Of a stretch of 46,400 nucleotides of DNA, positions 18,729 to 24,010 are shown piece after piece. Position 1 is the first letter of the stretch. Each line of letters opens with the position of its first letter. Below the pieces are notes generated by a model. It saw only the letters and a list, made by a program, of their open reading frames with translations, had not been told where the DNA came from and searched no databases. The position numbers were made by a program, and so were the translations under genes. This DNA is from Acetobacteraceae bacterium (lineage in GTDB: Bacteria; Pseudomonadota; Alphaproteobacteria; Acetobacterales; Acetobacteraceae): the NCBI GenBank assembly GCA_003164135.1, contig PLSD01000092.1, positions 1 to 46,400 on the forward strand. Direction: 5' to 3'.

Positions 18729-21059
18729 ATGACCGGCATACCAGATCAAGCGGCTTTCGACTCCGCGGCAGCGGTGGATATTGTCCGGATGCTGGAGGGT
18801 GCCGCCCTCACGGACCTCACCGCCCGTGCCGAGGCAATGACGCTGGCGGCATTCGGCCGCCGCGTCACCTATTCCCGCAAAGTGTTCATCCCGCTGACCA
18901 AACTCTGCCGGGACGTGTGCCATTACTGCACCTTCGCGCAGATACCCAAATCCATTGGCGCCGCTTACCTATCCGCCGATGAAGTCCTCGCCATCGCCCG
19001 CGCCGGGGTTGCCGCCGGCTGCCGCGAGGCGCTGTTCACTTTGGGCGACCAGCCCGAGGCCCGTTACGCCGCCGCGCGCGAGGCCCTGACCGCACTCGGG
19101 CACCCAACCACGCTCTCCTACCTGTGCGCGATGGCCGAACTGGTACTGAGGGAAACTGGCCTGCTGCCGCACCTCAACCCCGGCCTGATGAACGCGGCCG
19201 ATTACGCTGCCCTGCGCCCGGTCTCCGCCTCCATGGGCATCATGCTGGAAACCGCGTCGGAGCGGCTGTCCGGGCCAGGCGGGCCGCATTACGGCTCGCC
19301 CGACAAACTCCCCGCTGCCCGCCTTGCCGCCATCGCCGCCGCTGGTGAGGCCCGCGTGCCCTTCACCACCGGCCTGCTCATCGGCATCGGTGAAACCCGC
19401 GCCGAGCGCATTGAGGCGCTGGTTGCCATCCGCGACCTGCAACGCCGTTACGGTCACATCCAGGAAGTCATCATCCAGAACTTCCGGGCCAAGCAGGACA
19501 CCAAAATGGCCAGCCACCCGGAGCCCTCGCTGGAAGAGCATTGCTGGACCATTGCGGTGGCACGGCTGATTCTGGGCCCGGAGATGACCATCCAGGCGCC
19601 ACCCAACCTGCAGCCCAACGAACTCGCTGCCCTGCTAAAAGCCGGCGTCAACGACTGGGGCGGCGTTTCTCCCGTTACGCCGGACCATGTGAACCCCGAA
19701 GCCCCCTGGCCGCACTTGGCAGCTTTGGCGGAGACCACGGCTGCGGCCGGGCGCCTGCTGGTGGAACGTCTGGCGATTGGCCCCGCCTTTGCTCAAGCGC
19801 CGGATATCTGGTTGGACAAATCCCTGGTGCAGCGTGTCCGCCGCATGGTGGATGGCCGTGGTCTGCCGGTGACCGATGCCTGGCACGCTGGTACCGGCGA
19901 TCAGATACCCGCACCCGCGCTGCATGCTGGCACCGTGTCGCCCGTTATTGATACCATCATCGCCCGCGCCTGTGCCGGTGTGTGTCTCAGCGAGGCGGAG
20001 ATCGTGCAGTTGTTCAACGCCGATGGCGTGGACGCGCAGCGCATTACCGCCGCCGCCGACGCCCTGCGCGCCGAGGTCGCGGGCGACAACATCACCTACG
20101 TCATCAACCGCAACATCAACTACACCAACATCTGCCTCTACAAATGCGGTTTTTGCGCCTTCTCGAAGGGCAGCACCAAGGCCGAGCGCGGCCCCGCCTA
20201 CAATATTGACCTCTCCGAGATCAGTGGCCGCGCCGTGGAGGCCTGGGCGCGCGGCGCCACCGAAGTCTGCCTGCAAGGCGGCATCCACCCGGATTACGAC
20301 GGCAACACCTACCTCAACATCGCCCGCTCCGTGCGCCAATCCACGCCCGGCATGCACATCCACGCCTTCTCCCCGCTGGAAGTCTGGCACGGCGCCACCA
20401 CACTTGGCCTGGACCTGGAAATCTACCTCGCCCAACTGCGCGACGCCGGGCTCTCCACACTTCCCGGCACGGCGGCGGAAATCCTCGACGACGAAATCCG
20501 CGACATCATCTGCCCGGACAAGCTCAACACCCAGCAATGGCTGGACGTCATGCGCGCCGCCCACCGCGTCGGCCTCAAATCCACCGCCACCATTATGTTC
20601 GGCCATACCGAGCGCTACGAGCACTGGGCCCGTCACCTGCTGCGCATCCGCGACTTGCAGGCGGAAACCGGCGGCTTCACCGAGTTCGTGCCACTGCCCT
20701 TCGTCCACATGGAAGCCCCGCTCTGGCGCAAGGGGCTGGCCCGCTCCGGCCCCAGCTGGCGCGAGGCGCTGCTGATGCACGCCGTCGCCCGTCTCGTGCT
20801 GCACCCGCTCATCCCCAACATCCAGGCCAGTTGGGTCAAACTCGGCGAGGCCGGCGTGCTCGCCGCCCTTAACGCCGGGGTCAACGACCTCGGCGGCGTG
20901 CTGATGGACGAATCCATTACCCGCGCCGCCGGCGGTCAGAACGGCCAGGCCTGCACGCCAGAGCGCATGCGCCACCTTGCGTCCCTGGTCGGCCGCCCCG
21001 CCGTGCAGCGCACCACCCTCTACAAGCCGGTGCCCATACTGGCTGAAACCGGCGACTAA
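18729..21059 (+). CDS. fbiC: FbiC: fused CofG-CofH, 7,8-didemethyl-8-hydroxy-5-deazariboflavin (Fo) synthase
   Basis: The 776-residue double radical-SAM protein has an N-terminal CofG half with CRDVCHYC (Cys60, 64, 67) and a C-terminal CofH half with CLYKCGFC (Cys469, 473, 476). Together they make the deazaflavin chromophore Fo from tyrosine and the pyrimidine precursor 5-amino-6-ribitylamino-uracil. The fused form is typical of actinobacteria and of bacteria that received F420 genes, whereas archaea have separate CofG and CofH. The chosen ATG follows GAAGG; an upstream TTG would add 13 unlikely residues. Third positions are strikingly C-rich compared with the genes on either side. Confidence 0.97.
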   Translation: MTGIPDQAAFDSAAAVDIVRMLEGAALTDLTARAEAMTLAAFGRRVTYSRKVFIPLTKLCRDVCHYCTFAQIPKSIGAAYLSADEVLAIARAGVAAGCREALFTLGDQPEARYAAAREALTALGHPTTLSYLCAMAELVLRETGLLPHLNPGLMNAADYAALRPVSASMGIMLETASERLSGPGGPHYGSPDKLPAARLAAIAAAGEARVPFTTGLLIGIGETRAERIEALVAIRDLQRRYGHIQEVIIQNFRAKQDTKMASHPEPSLEEHCWTIAVARLILGPEMTIQAPPNLQPNELAALLKAGVNDWGGVSPVTPDHVNPEAPWPHLAALAETTAAAGRLLVERLAIGPAFAQAPDIWLDKSLVQRVRRMVDGRGLPVTDAWHAGTGDQIPAPALHAGTVSPVIDTIIARACAGVCLSEAEIVQLFNADGVDAQRITAAADALRAEVAGDNITYVINRNINYTNICLYKCGFCAFSKGSTKAERGPAYNIDLSEISGRAVEAWARGATEVCLQGGIHPDYDGNTYLNIARSVRQSTPGMHIHAFSPLEVWHGATTLGLDLEIYLAQLRDAGLSTLPGTAAEILDDEIRDIICPDKLNTQQWLDVMRAAHRVGLKSTATIMFGHTERYEHWARHLLRIRDLQAETGGFTEFVPLPFVHMEAPLWRKGLARSGPSWREALLMHAVARLVLHPLIPNIQASWVKLGEAGVLAALNAGVNDLGGVLMDESITRAAGGQNGQACTPERMRHLASLVGRPAVQRTTLYKPVPILAETGD

Positions 21060-21076
21060 GCTTAACCTCACAACGG

Positions 21077-22500: not shown

Positions 22501-23438
22501 CCCCGCGCGTTGTCGTCCTCACCGGTGGCGTCGGCGGCGCCAAGCTGGTGCTCGGCCTGGCGCAAATACTGCCGCCATCAAACCTCACCGCCATCGTCAA
22601 CACCGGCGACGATTTCACCCATCTCGGCCTCGCCATCTCCCCGGATATCGACACGCTGCTCTACACCCTCTCCGGCAAGGCCAACGCCGCGCAGGGCTGG
22701 GGGCGGGAAGGGGAGAGCTGGTCCTTCATGTCCGCCCTGCGCACGCTCGGCGGCGCCGACTGGTTCCAGCTAGGCGACGGTGACCTCGCCCTGCACATCC
22801 TGCGCACTGACGCCCGAGCCCAGGGACAGCCTCTCTCTCAGATCGTCGCCAACTTCGCGCAAGCCTGGAACGTCGGCCCCGCCGTGCTGCCGATGACGAA
22901 CGACCCCGTCGCCACCATGCTTACCACCGACGAAGGCGAGCTCGACTTCCAGCACTATTTCGTCGCACGCCGCTGTGCCCCTGTCGTCCGCGCCATCCGA
23001 TTCCAGGGCGCCGCCCAGGCCCGCCCGGCGCCCTGCGTGCTCGCCGCCATCGCCCAAGCCGACGCCATCCTTATCGCCCCCTCTAACCCGTACCTCAGCA
23101 TCGACCCGATCCTTGCCGTCCCGGGCATCGCTGCCGCCCTAGCCGGAGCAAAGGCCGCGGTCGTCGCCATCTCGCCCATAGTCGGCGGCCAGGCGGTCAA
23201 AGGTCCCACCGCCAAACTCATGGCCGAACTCGGCATCGCCATCACCAACACCGCCATCGCCACCCACTACCGCGCCGTCCTCAATGGCCTGCTGCTCGAC
23301 GAGCGCGATCCACCCGCCGACCCTGGTGTCACTTTCGCCACCGCAGACACGCTGATGCACACCCTTGAAGACCGCATCCGCGTGGCCCGCGCGGCCCTGG
23401 TGCTGGCTGAACAAATTTCCAAAAGCCGGCCCCAGTGA
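22497..23438 (+). CDS. cofD: 2-phospho-L-lactate (or analogue) transferase CofD/FbiA
   Basis: This is a 313-residue CofD. The N-terminal LTGGVGGAKLVLGLA, NTGDDF and SPDIDTLLYTLSG motifs are diagnostic. It transfers the phospho-carboxylate unit from the guanylylated intermediate made by CofC onto Fo, giving F420-0 or a variant. GTG start in a 4-base overlap with cofE; 4-base overlap with cofC. Which C3 unit is used (2-phospholactate, phosphoenolpyruvate or 3-phosphoglycerate) cannot be read by eye. Confidence 0.95.
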   Translation: MTPRVVVLTGGVGGAKLVLGLAQILPPSNLTAIVNTGDDFTHLGLAISPDIDTLLYTLSGKANAAQGWGREGESWSFMSALRTLGGADWFQLGDGDLALHILRTDARAQGQPLSQIVANFAQAWNVGPAVLPMTNDPVATMLTTDEGELDFQHYFVARRCAPVVRAIRFQGAAQARPAPCVLAAIAQADAILIAPSNPYLSIDPILAVPGIAAALAGAKAAVVAISPIVGGQAVKGPTAKLMAELGIAITNTAIATHYRAVLNGLLLDERDPPADPGVTFATADTLMHTLEDRIRVARAALVLAEQISKSRPQ

Positions 23439-24010
23439 CGCAAGCTACAGGTTGGACGGCGATCATCCCGTTCAAGCCGGCAGGGACGCGCAAAACCCGT
23501 CTGGCAAACCACCTTTCCCCAGTGCAGCGCGACGATTTAAGTGAAAAACTCTTCTGGCACGTTGCCCAAACACTAGCCGCCACCCCCGGACTCACGCGCA
23601 TCGTTCTGCTTTCCAGCGCCAGAATGCCTGGTTGGGATGGTTTATGGCTGGCCGATGAGGGACGAGGTTTGAATGACGAATTGCGTCATGCGCGGCAAAG
23701 CCTCGGCGCGGAAAAACTGCTCGTCATTCACGCGGATCTGCCCTTCGTAACGCCCGAGGACACCAACTCGCTCATCGCCCAAGCGGAAGCTGGCTGCGCG
23801 ATTGCACCCGACCGGCATGGAGTAGGCACCAATGCGCTTGCCCTGCGCGATGCCACCGGCTTTACCTTCGCCTTTGGCGAGAACAGCTTTAAGCGCCATA
23901 TCGACGCAGCAAAAAACCGGGCGCTTATTGTCGAGCGGCCCGGGTTTTCCCTCGATATCGATACCCAGGCCGATCTCGATCTGGCGACCAGCCAGGGGCT
24001 TTTGGCTTAG
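23435..24010 (+). CDS. cofC: Guanylyltransferase CofC/FbiD for F420 synthesis
   Basis: The 191-residue protein has the nucleotidyltransferase start IIPFKPAGTRKTRLA and the later LLVIHADLPFV (metal-binding Asp), GCAIAPDRHGVGTNALAL and FSLDIDTQADL, as in CofC. It activates the C3 phospho-acid with GTP. Unlike the four genes before it, its codons are less C-rich. The gene ends 4 bases into the convergent flavin monooxygenase gene, so no terminator follows. Confidence 0.92.
   Translation: MTQATGWTAIIPFKPAGTRKTRLANHLSPVQRDDLSEKLFWHVAQTLAATPGLTRIVLLSSARMPGWDGLWLADEGRGLNDELRHARQSLGAEKLLVIHADLPFVTPEDTNSLIAQAEAGCAIAPDRHGVGTNALALRDATGFTFAFGENSFKRHIDAAKNRALIVERPGFSLDIDTQADLDLATSQGLLA

Follow-up and report, generated by a model that had tools for sequence, protein, structure and literature searches.

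Why would an alphaproteobacterium carry a full set of genes for cofactor F420 in the midst of a catabolic gene cluster, and is the cofactor made for that cluster or for the cell at large? The question is posed by a 46,400-nucleotide stretch of an Acetobacteraceae genome (assembly GCA_003164135.1, contig PLSD01000092.1, positions 1 to 46,400; hereafter the window), in which five F420 genes lie amongst genes for oxygenases, dehydrogenases and luciferase-like oxidoreductases (LLM proteins). Our preferred answer, to which we give a probability of roughly two in three, is that the five genes form a predicted F420 synthesis-and-recharging set within an island shared by several alphaproteobacterial families, and that this set likely supplies the reduced cofactor, F420H2, to LLM reductases encoded by the island.

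Gene identities were judged by NCBIfam scores, in bits, against curated cut-offs, which all five genes pass on the forward strand: fbiC, for a bifunctional FO synthase combining CofG and CofH (18690..21059; NF006687 1141, cut-off 1018); npdG, for an NADPH-dependent F420 reductase (21077..21745; TIGR01915 193, cut-off 150); cofE, for an F420-0:glutamate ligase (21742..22500; TIGR01916 234, cut-off 181); cofD, for a 2-phospho-L-lactate transferase (22497..23438; TIGR01819 307, cut-off 257); and cofC, for a guanylyltransferase (23435..24010; TIGR03552 131, cut-off 105). The frames for FO synthase, CofC, CofD and CofE are all intact; CofE has a single Pfam domain, lacking the second domain of the FbiB type, and passes TIGR01916 without reaching two longer CofE models. 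Five predicted genes in order, each above a curated cut-off, are no chance pattern. An earlier note on this DNA had described them as consecutive, the last four joined by 4-base overlaps, and this is borne out: npdG/cofE, cofE/cofD and cofD/cofC each share GTGA, 17 bases separate fbiC from npdG, and cofC overlaps a convergent gene (24007-25230) by a further 4 bases. The ATG at 18729 from which fbiC had been thought to start exists, but the gene is called here from a TTG at 18690. A second full F420 operon elsewhere in the genome, which by that note would undo the pathway-dedicated reading, was not found, there being a single fbiC match in the host.

Candidate users of the cofactor lie in the same window, both on the forward strand and both luciferase-like oxidoreductases of F420-named families: LLM1 (4912..5841; TIGR03619 187, cut-off 167) and LLM2 (30272..31360; TIGR03857 415, cut-off 218), the latter with relatives at 80-82% in sphingomonad, Hirschia and plasmid islands. 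Two intact F420-type LLM genes had been said to flank the operon; they are intact and exceed F420-named cut-offs, but they do not adjoin it, lying 12.8 kb upstream and 6.3 kb downstream. By sequence, the best match of both amongst solved structures is the F420-dependent enzyme Mer. Fifteen proteins of the host genome match PF00296, two of them in the window. Ten of the 13 outside it were scanned: F420-named models give the best match for five, of which three exceed the cut-off, four are of SsuD, NtaA or MsnO8 types and one has no match at threshold. Three of the five F420-type proteins are encoded on contig C124, which likely carries another part of the island, and one each on C26 and C135, so that the proposed check for other F420-dependent enzymes in the genome returned candidates both in the probable island and outside its contigs.

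Evidence for an association comes from relatives, whose loci were compared with the window proteins by tblastn. The island marker used for counts was rhdA, the large subunit of a ring-hydroxylating dioxygenase (28472..29878, reverse strand; Pfam Rieske and Ring_hydroxyl_A). Two further genes on the forward strand help to define the pattern: one for a beta-keto acid cleavage enzyme, immediately preceding fbiC (17718..18647; NF053538 536, cut-off 430), found at or near the F420 genes in relatives, and one for a MalT-like regulator of the LuxR family (14972..17647; Pfam TPR_MalT and GerE), found in the same place in relatives and belonging to a large family, with at least 869 proteins over threshold amongst 7992 candidates scored. 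The island is common to Sphingobium, Novosphingobium, Sphingomonas, Croceicoccus, Hirschia and a sister species of the host genus (G009). Island genes stand beside fbiC in nine of the 80 named loci listed: Sphingobium cupriresistens, S. xenophagum, S. fontiphilum, Sphingomonas 28-63-12, Novosphingobium 32-60-15, three uncultured Sphingomonadaceae and Hirschia SP140. In seven of these, the regulator and cleavage-enzyme genes lie no more than 10 kb from fbiC; Hirschia SP140 has the regulator without the cleavage enzyme, and Novosphingobium 32-60-15 has neither within its 10-kb flank. LLM1 and rhdA were each searched for in 20 genomes of the host-genus and named set, and all nine named island genomes have both (73-79% and 74-83%, respectively), as against none of three sphingomonads that carry F420 genes without the island pattern. 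Within the host genus, G009 has LLM1 (91%) and rhdA (99%), G013, G015 and G022 have LLM1 alone at 50-53% with no rhdA, and neither was matched in G004, G016, G025 or G029.

A broader sample of 397 genomes of the sphingomonad family (that of genome G066) was searched with E up to 1e-100 for rhdA and fbiC and 1e-60 for LLM1; it includes some of the nine named island genomes and, by coordinates, the Croceicoccus marinus record (G605). Here rhdA occurs in 10 genomes, fbiC in 57 and LLM1 in 18. Every rhdA genome has fbiC (10/10; hypergeometric p 2e-9) and LLM1 is found only in genomes with fbiC (18/18; p 5e-17), these p values being too small since kin genomes are not independent. Proximity follows the same lines: where LLM1 is at least 74% identical (11 genomes), fbiC lies on the same contig in all 11 and at most 4.5 kb away in 10, the fbiC matches of G443 and G073 being partial, and where it is 48-50% identical (seven genomes), fbiC lies 24-62 kb away in four and on another contig in three. 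Both rhdA and fbiC share a contig in seven of 10 genomes, 8-49 kb apart. The F420 supply likely travels together with the pathway that would use it.

How the genes came to this host is best approached through its ancestry. The host is a member of the Acetobacteraceae and Gram-negative, the latter as the earlier note had thought probable: its RpoB shares 85% identity with that of Rhodopila globiformis, of the Acetobacteraceae, and 68-71% with those of the sphingomonads searched (26 of 31 genomes with a match). Records in the FbiC tree agree, a same-family genome (G266) and a named record of the Acetobacteraceae having identical FbiC. In a sample of the family, fbiC occurs in 54 of 200 genomes including the host (E up to 1e-100), the best other being 66% identical; in the host genus it occurs in 12 of 38 (E up to 1e-60), namely the host, G009 (87%), G016 (81%) and nine others at 60-62%, with no match in the remaining 26, several of which are incomplete. 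The closest FbiC amongst the 80 listed named loci is 75% identical (Rhizorhapis and Sphingomonas SRS2). In a tree of 52 FbiC rows, the window, G009 and G016 fall inside a 21-row set whose other members are all sphingomonads (support 100/98); a separate clade (100/100) is made up of twelve rows from the Acetobacteraceae, and five further FbiC of the host genus lie on the Acetobacteraceae side. The tree is midpoint-rooted and gives no direction of transfer, and its row G443_ISL, which represents the fbiC copy on contig C207 rather than the partial copy near LLM1 on C174, was not counted as an island copy. Because the host belongs to the Acetobacteraceae but its FbiC groups with sphingomonads, fbiC has moved between families. 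Vertical inheritance within the Acetobacteraceae was considered and rejected, since the window FbiC groups elsewhere and shares no more than 66% identity with any FbiC from the 53 other fbiC-positive genomes of the family sample. The island, too, recurs with a shared gene order in distant families, against the host phylogeny as seen in the FbiC tree and RpoB, as would be expected of a mobile element.

Plasmids supply a plausible vehicle. An rhdA match was found in 53 plasmid records, at 60-80% in three: pSA2 of Novosphingobium resinovorum and two plasmids of C. marinus. These three alone also match LLM1, and all three match fbiC, as do 64 plasmid records overall. On pCME4A9I of C. marinus, typed as non-mobilizable, regulator, cleavage enzyme, an LLM gene, fbiC, npdG, cofE, cofD, cofC and LLM1 follow one another in this order, with LLM genes on both sides of the F420 genes. 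On pSA2, typed as conjugative, one block at 345-350 kb holds fbiC, npdG, cofC and LLM1 and another at 281-283 kb holds cofE-cofD, the cofD being only 48% identical; both blocks lie between inverted repeats of 2606 bases, 99% identical, about 102 kb apart and containing recombinase genes. The corresponding stretch of pSA2 (NZ_CP017077, 277-385 kb), some 107 kb bounded by inverted 2.6-kb copies of the recombinase region, holds the island and all F420 genes. Annotated LLM genes number five in the viewed stretch of C. marinus and four in the pSA2 element. Mobility of the island copy in the window itself is inferred. The suggestion that the island could confer F420 on a recipient gains from the plasmid islands, one of them typed conjugative, and from the 26 of 38 genus genomes without an fbiC match, but goes no further than plausible.

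It is worth noting that a number of observations weigh against cofactor and pathway forming one working unit, quite apart from the relatedness of the sampled genomes. F420 genes also occur in genomes that lack the island marker: fbiC is present in 47 of 387 sampled sphingomonad genomes without rhdA, and in 53 of the 199 other genomes of the Acetobacteraceae sample. G004 and G029 carry fbiC without LLM1 or rhdA, and in G016 all five F420 genes stand in a row (locus L230, contig C248) in a genome matching neither. Alongside these, the G016 locus has the cleavage enzyme (90%) beside its F420 genes, and a Rieske oxygenase and a short-chain dehydrogenase/reductase (SDR) upstream; in G004 (L231; contig C247, 84000-103900), the locus is mixed, its npdG, cofE, cofD and cofC belonging to the type seen in the window (51-78%) and lying beside a divergent fbiC of the other type (61%). 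Two LLM proteins over F420-named cut-offs are encoded on C26 and C135, outside the island contigs, where the stretches viewed (about 19 kb each) hold only 25-44% matches to the tested island proteins. Nor do the FbiC proteins of island genomes form one clade: five rows join Hirschia and Croceicoccus, and others fall in a Sphingobium-Novosphingobium group, at L036 beside a non-island genome, at L264 and in the window group. The Pfam scan of the 40 window genes revealed no mobility genes, repeats not having been searched for in the window, and no dehydro-F420 reductase, for which the whole genome was not searched.

Base composition adds a further point on the same side. In the window, the GC content of fbiC, npdG, cofE and cofD is 66-71% and their third-position C is 0.53-0.63, as compared with 54-64% GC and 0.26-0.46 for cofC and the other 35 genes, excepting two at the left edge (0.50 and 0.55). 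G009 shows the same contrast, the whole fetched operon of G016 including cofC is C-rich, and F420 genes are no different from other genes in third-position C in the islands of sphingomonads and Croceicoccus. As the composition of the F420 block differs from that of its neighbours and island FbiC is not one clade, the block may be a later arrival or a replacement within the island.

Taken together, these points lend some weight to the alternative that the operon is a general cofactor set lying beside an unrelated catabolic cluster, the two travelling on the same mobile DNA with no joint work: fbiC is frequent without the island, G016 keeps the operon without LLM1 or rhdA, and the F420 block has a composition of its own. 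We nonetheless consider it unlikely, given that no rhdA or LLM1 genome of the sphingomonad sample lacks fbiC, that LLM genes adjoin the F420 genes in several relatives, and that islands hold FbiC of different lineages, which fits a repeated need better than one chance linkage. By the same evidence, the notion of a cofactor dedicated to this pathway is upheld in part: the single fbiC of the host and the constant company of fbiC with rhdA and LLM1 favour it, but exclusive dedication is not supported in view of the LLM proteins on C26 and C135, the 47 genomes with fbiC and no rhdA, and G016.

Less probable again is that LLM1, LLM2 and the other island LLM proteins are monooxygenases dependent on flavin mononucleotide (FMN), leaving F420 to other enzymes of the cell. 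In favour of this idea, Foldseek ranks the FMN enzymes SfnG and MsuD closest to the structural model of LLM1 (predicted local distance difference test, pLDDT, 92) and Mer from rank 15, at similar scores, which also counts against the reading that we prefer; as a means of settling the cofactor of LLM1, the fold comparison was not decisive. F420 family names, moreover, derive from models and not from assays. Set against this, LLM1 and LLM2 both pass such models, Mer is the best solved sequence relative of each, and all 18 genomes with an LLM1 relative carry fbiC. A very improbable explanation is that the window is sphingomonad DNA misbinned into an Acetobacteraceae genome, as might be thought from the estimated contamination of the bin (5.43%) and the position of its FbiC amongst sphingomonads; but G009, a separately assembled genome of the same genus (100% complete, 2% contamination), has island proteins 82-99% identical to those of the window, as compared with 74-86% for sphingomonad rhdA, and host contig C124 appears to carry more of the island.

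If the five genes do provision the island, FbiC would make FO, CofC and CofD would attach a three-carbon linker derived from 2-phospholactate or phosphoenolpyruvate, CofE would add glutamates and NpdG would reduce F420 using NADPH. The substrate would be polycyclic and probably terpenoid- or steroid-like; LLM1, LLM2 and related LLM proteins would pass hydride to its intermediates, and its breakdown would presumably involve P450s, Rieske oxygenases and an HsaA-like hydroxylase as well as extradiol cleavage and beta-oxidation. The linker step requires 2-phospholactate or a dehydro-F420 reductase; an island nitroreductase was considered for the latter role and set aside, as both of the plasmid copies that were scanned are, by score, of the malonic semialdehyde reductase type. 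A variant with a linker from 3-phosphoglycerate (3PG-F420) was also rejected: in an alignment to 7p97, the diagnostic Ser of CofC enzymes that use 3-phosphoglycerate is replaced by Gly in the CofC of the window, and a residue count over 90 locus matches, some of them repeats of one genome, gives Gly (81), Asp (6) or Cys (3) at this position, and no Ser.

The remaining genes of the island fit a degradative role. A block on the reverse strand (24007..28438) encodes, by its domains, rhdB, a ferredoxin reductase, an SDR, a TetR regulator and an HsaA-like hydroxylase, in an order repeated in G066, G064, G067, G072, G077 and the plasmids. Domain scans place two P450s, a hydrolase, SDRs, an acyl-CoA dehydrogenase, a MaoC-like protein and a glyoxalase-fold protein at 5866..14314, where the order from the acyl-CoA dehydrogenase to the third SDR is kept in relatives. 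Another glyoxalase-fold protein (948..1907, reverse strand; PF00903) is a possible extradiol dioxygenase, with weak matches to BphC-type structures, and a zinc dehydrogenase, an SDR and an acyl-CoA ligase (42461..46044, forward strand) have relatives at 51-75% in island genomes. The HsaA-like hydroxylase has XiaF as its nearest solved relative, and the Rieske oxygenases are related to naphthalene and biphenyl dioxygenases. The hydroxylase, P450s, Rieske oxygenases and beta-oxidation genes together point to a polycyclic substrate. About 60 kb of contig C124 holds relatives of plasmid-island proteins (Rieske proteins at 57-67%, a thiolase at 71%, FadB at 60% and two LLM proteins at 60-64%); it also encodes a second dioxygenase (59% to rhdA) and an ecdysteroid-kinase-like protein. 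Elsewhere in the window, an open frame of 457 amino acids (31806-33179) with no Pfam or NCBIfam family over cut-off precedes a LuxC-like acyl-CoA reductase gene, and a protein of the old-yellow-enzyme type (40183-42156) has mycofactocin-associated and BaiCD models as its nearest, both below cut-off. There is no tRNA in the window, and promoter, terminator and RNA-family scans gave nothing useful. A literature search, with most subscription journals out of reach, returned no paper identifiable as describing this island or giving its substrate. Resin acids are a substrate lead only, as is glycyrrhizin, used by an N. resinovorum isolate in a report whose accessible part makes no mention of F420 (PMC10201799).

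A bolder reading, which we hold only tentatively and rate somewhat below an even chance, is that the island is a transmissible pathway-plus-cofactor element with F420 synthesis, recharging and about five F420H2-dependent reductases, which passes from one alphaproteobacterial family to another by way of conjugative plasmids and would make F420 users of F420-negative recipients, enabling them to reduce and degrade polycyclic natural products by an undescribed route. The island suggests that a catabolic element can bring an unusual redox cofactor with it to a new host; such transfer would help to explain the patchy spread of F420. It also points to particular enzymes within a pathway, and to strains (N. 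resinovorum SA1, C. marinus E4A9 and S. xenophagum NBRC 107872) in which the role of F420 could be tested by removal of one gene.

The picrate/dinitrophenol gene cluster of Rhodococcus and relatives is not known to include F420 biosynthesis genes. That system likewise couples catabolism to LLM-type F420H2-dependent reductases, as outlined in the available part of a 2021 review (PMC8498797), but it is actinobacterial and acts on nitroaromatics, whereas the island described here belongs to alphaproteobacteria and includes its own biosynthesis genes. Outside Actinobacteria, the same portion of the review holds, no F420H2-dependent reductase has been tested in bacteria and roles there are only inferred, with two alphaproteobacteria containing only trace F420. 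The steroid gene group of Sterolibacterium denitrificans is a partial precedent in a Gram-negative bacterium, as a figure legend labels cofC, cofD and cofE beside steroid-degradation genes; unlike the present island, that legend names no fbiC, npdG or LLM gene and no role for F420 (PMC6678751). F420 genes are recorded in six Novosphingobium strains, with no role given in the accessible text (PMC13318209). Mycetohabitans, the source of 3PG-F420, is likewise a proteobacterium with an F420 set, one whose linker is selected by CofC, as far as the available sections describe it, and differs in the diagnostic Ser of its 3-phosphoglycerate enzymes, in place of which the window CofC has Gly (PMC8764529). 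There is also a close likeness to the proteobacterial F420 genes of the 2021 review, with their fused FbiC, CofD, CofE, CofC and NADPH:F420 reductase, for which the portion available describes patchy spread and horizontal transfer (PMC8498797); what sets the present genes apart from these is their place within a conserved catabolic island with several LLM genes, borne on plasmids in related strains.

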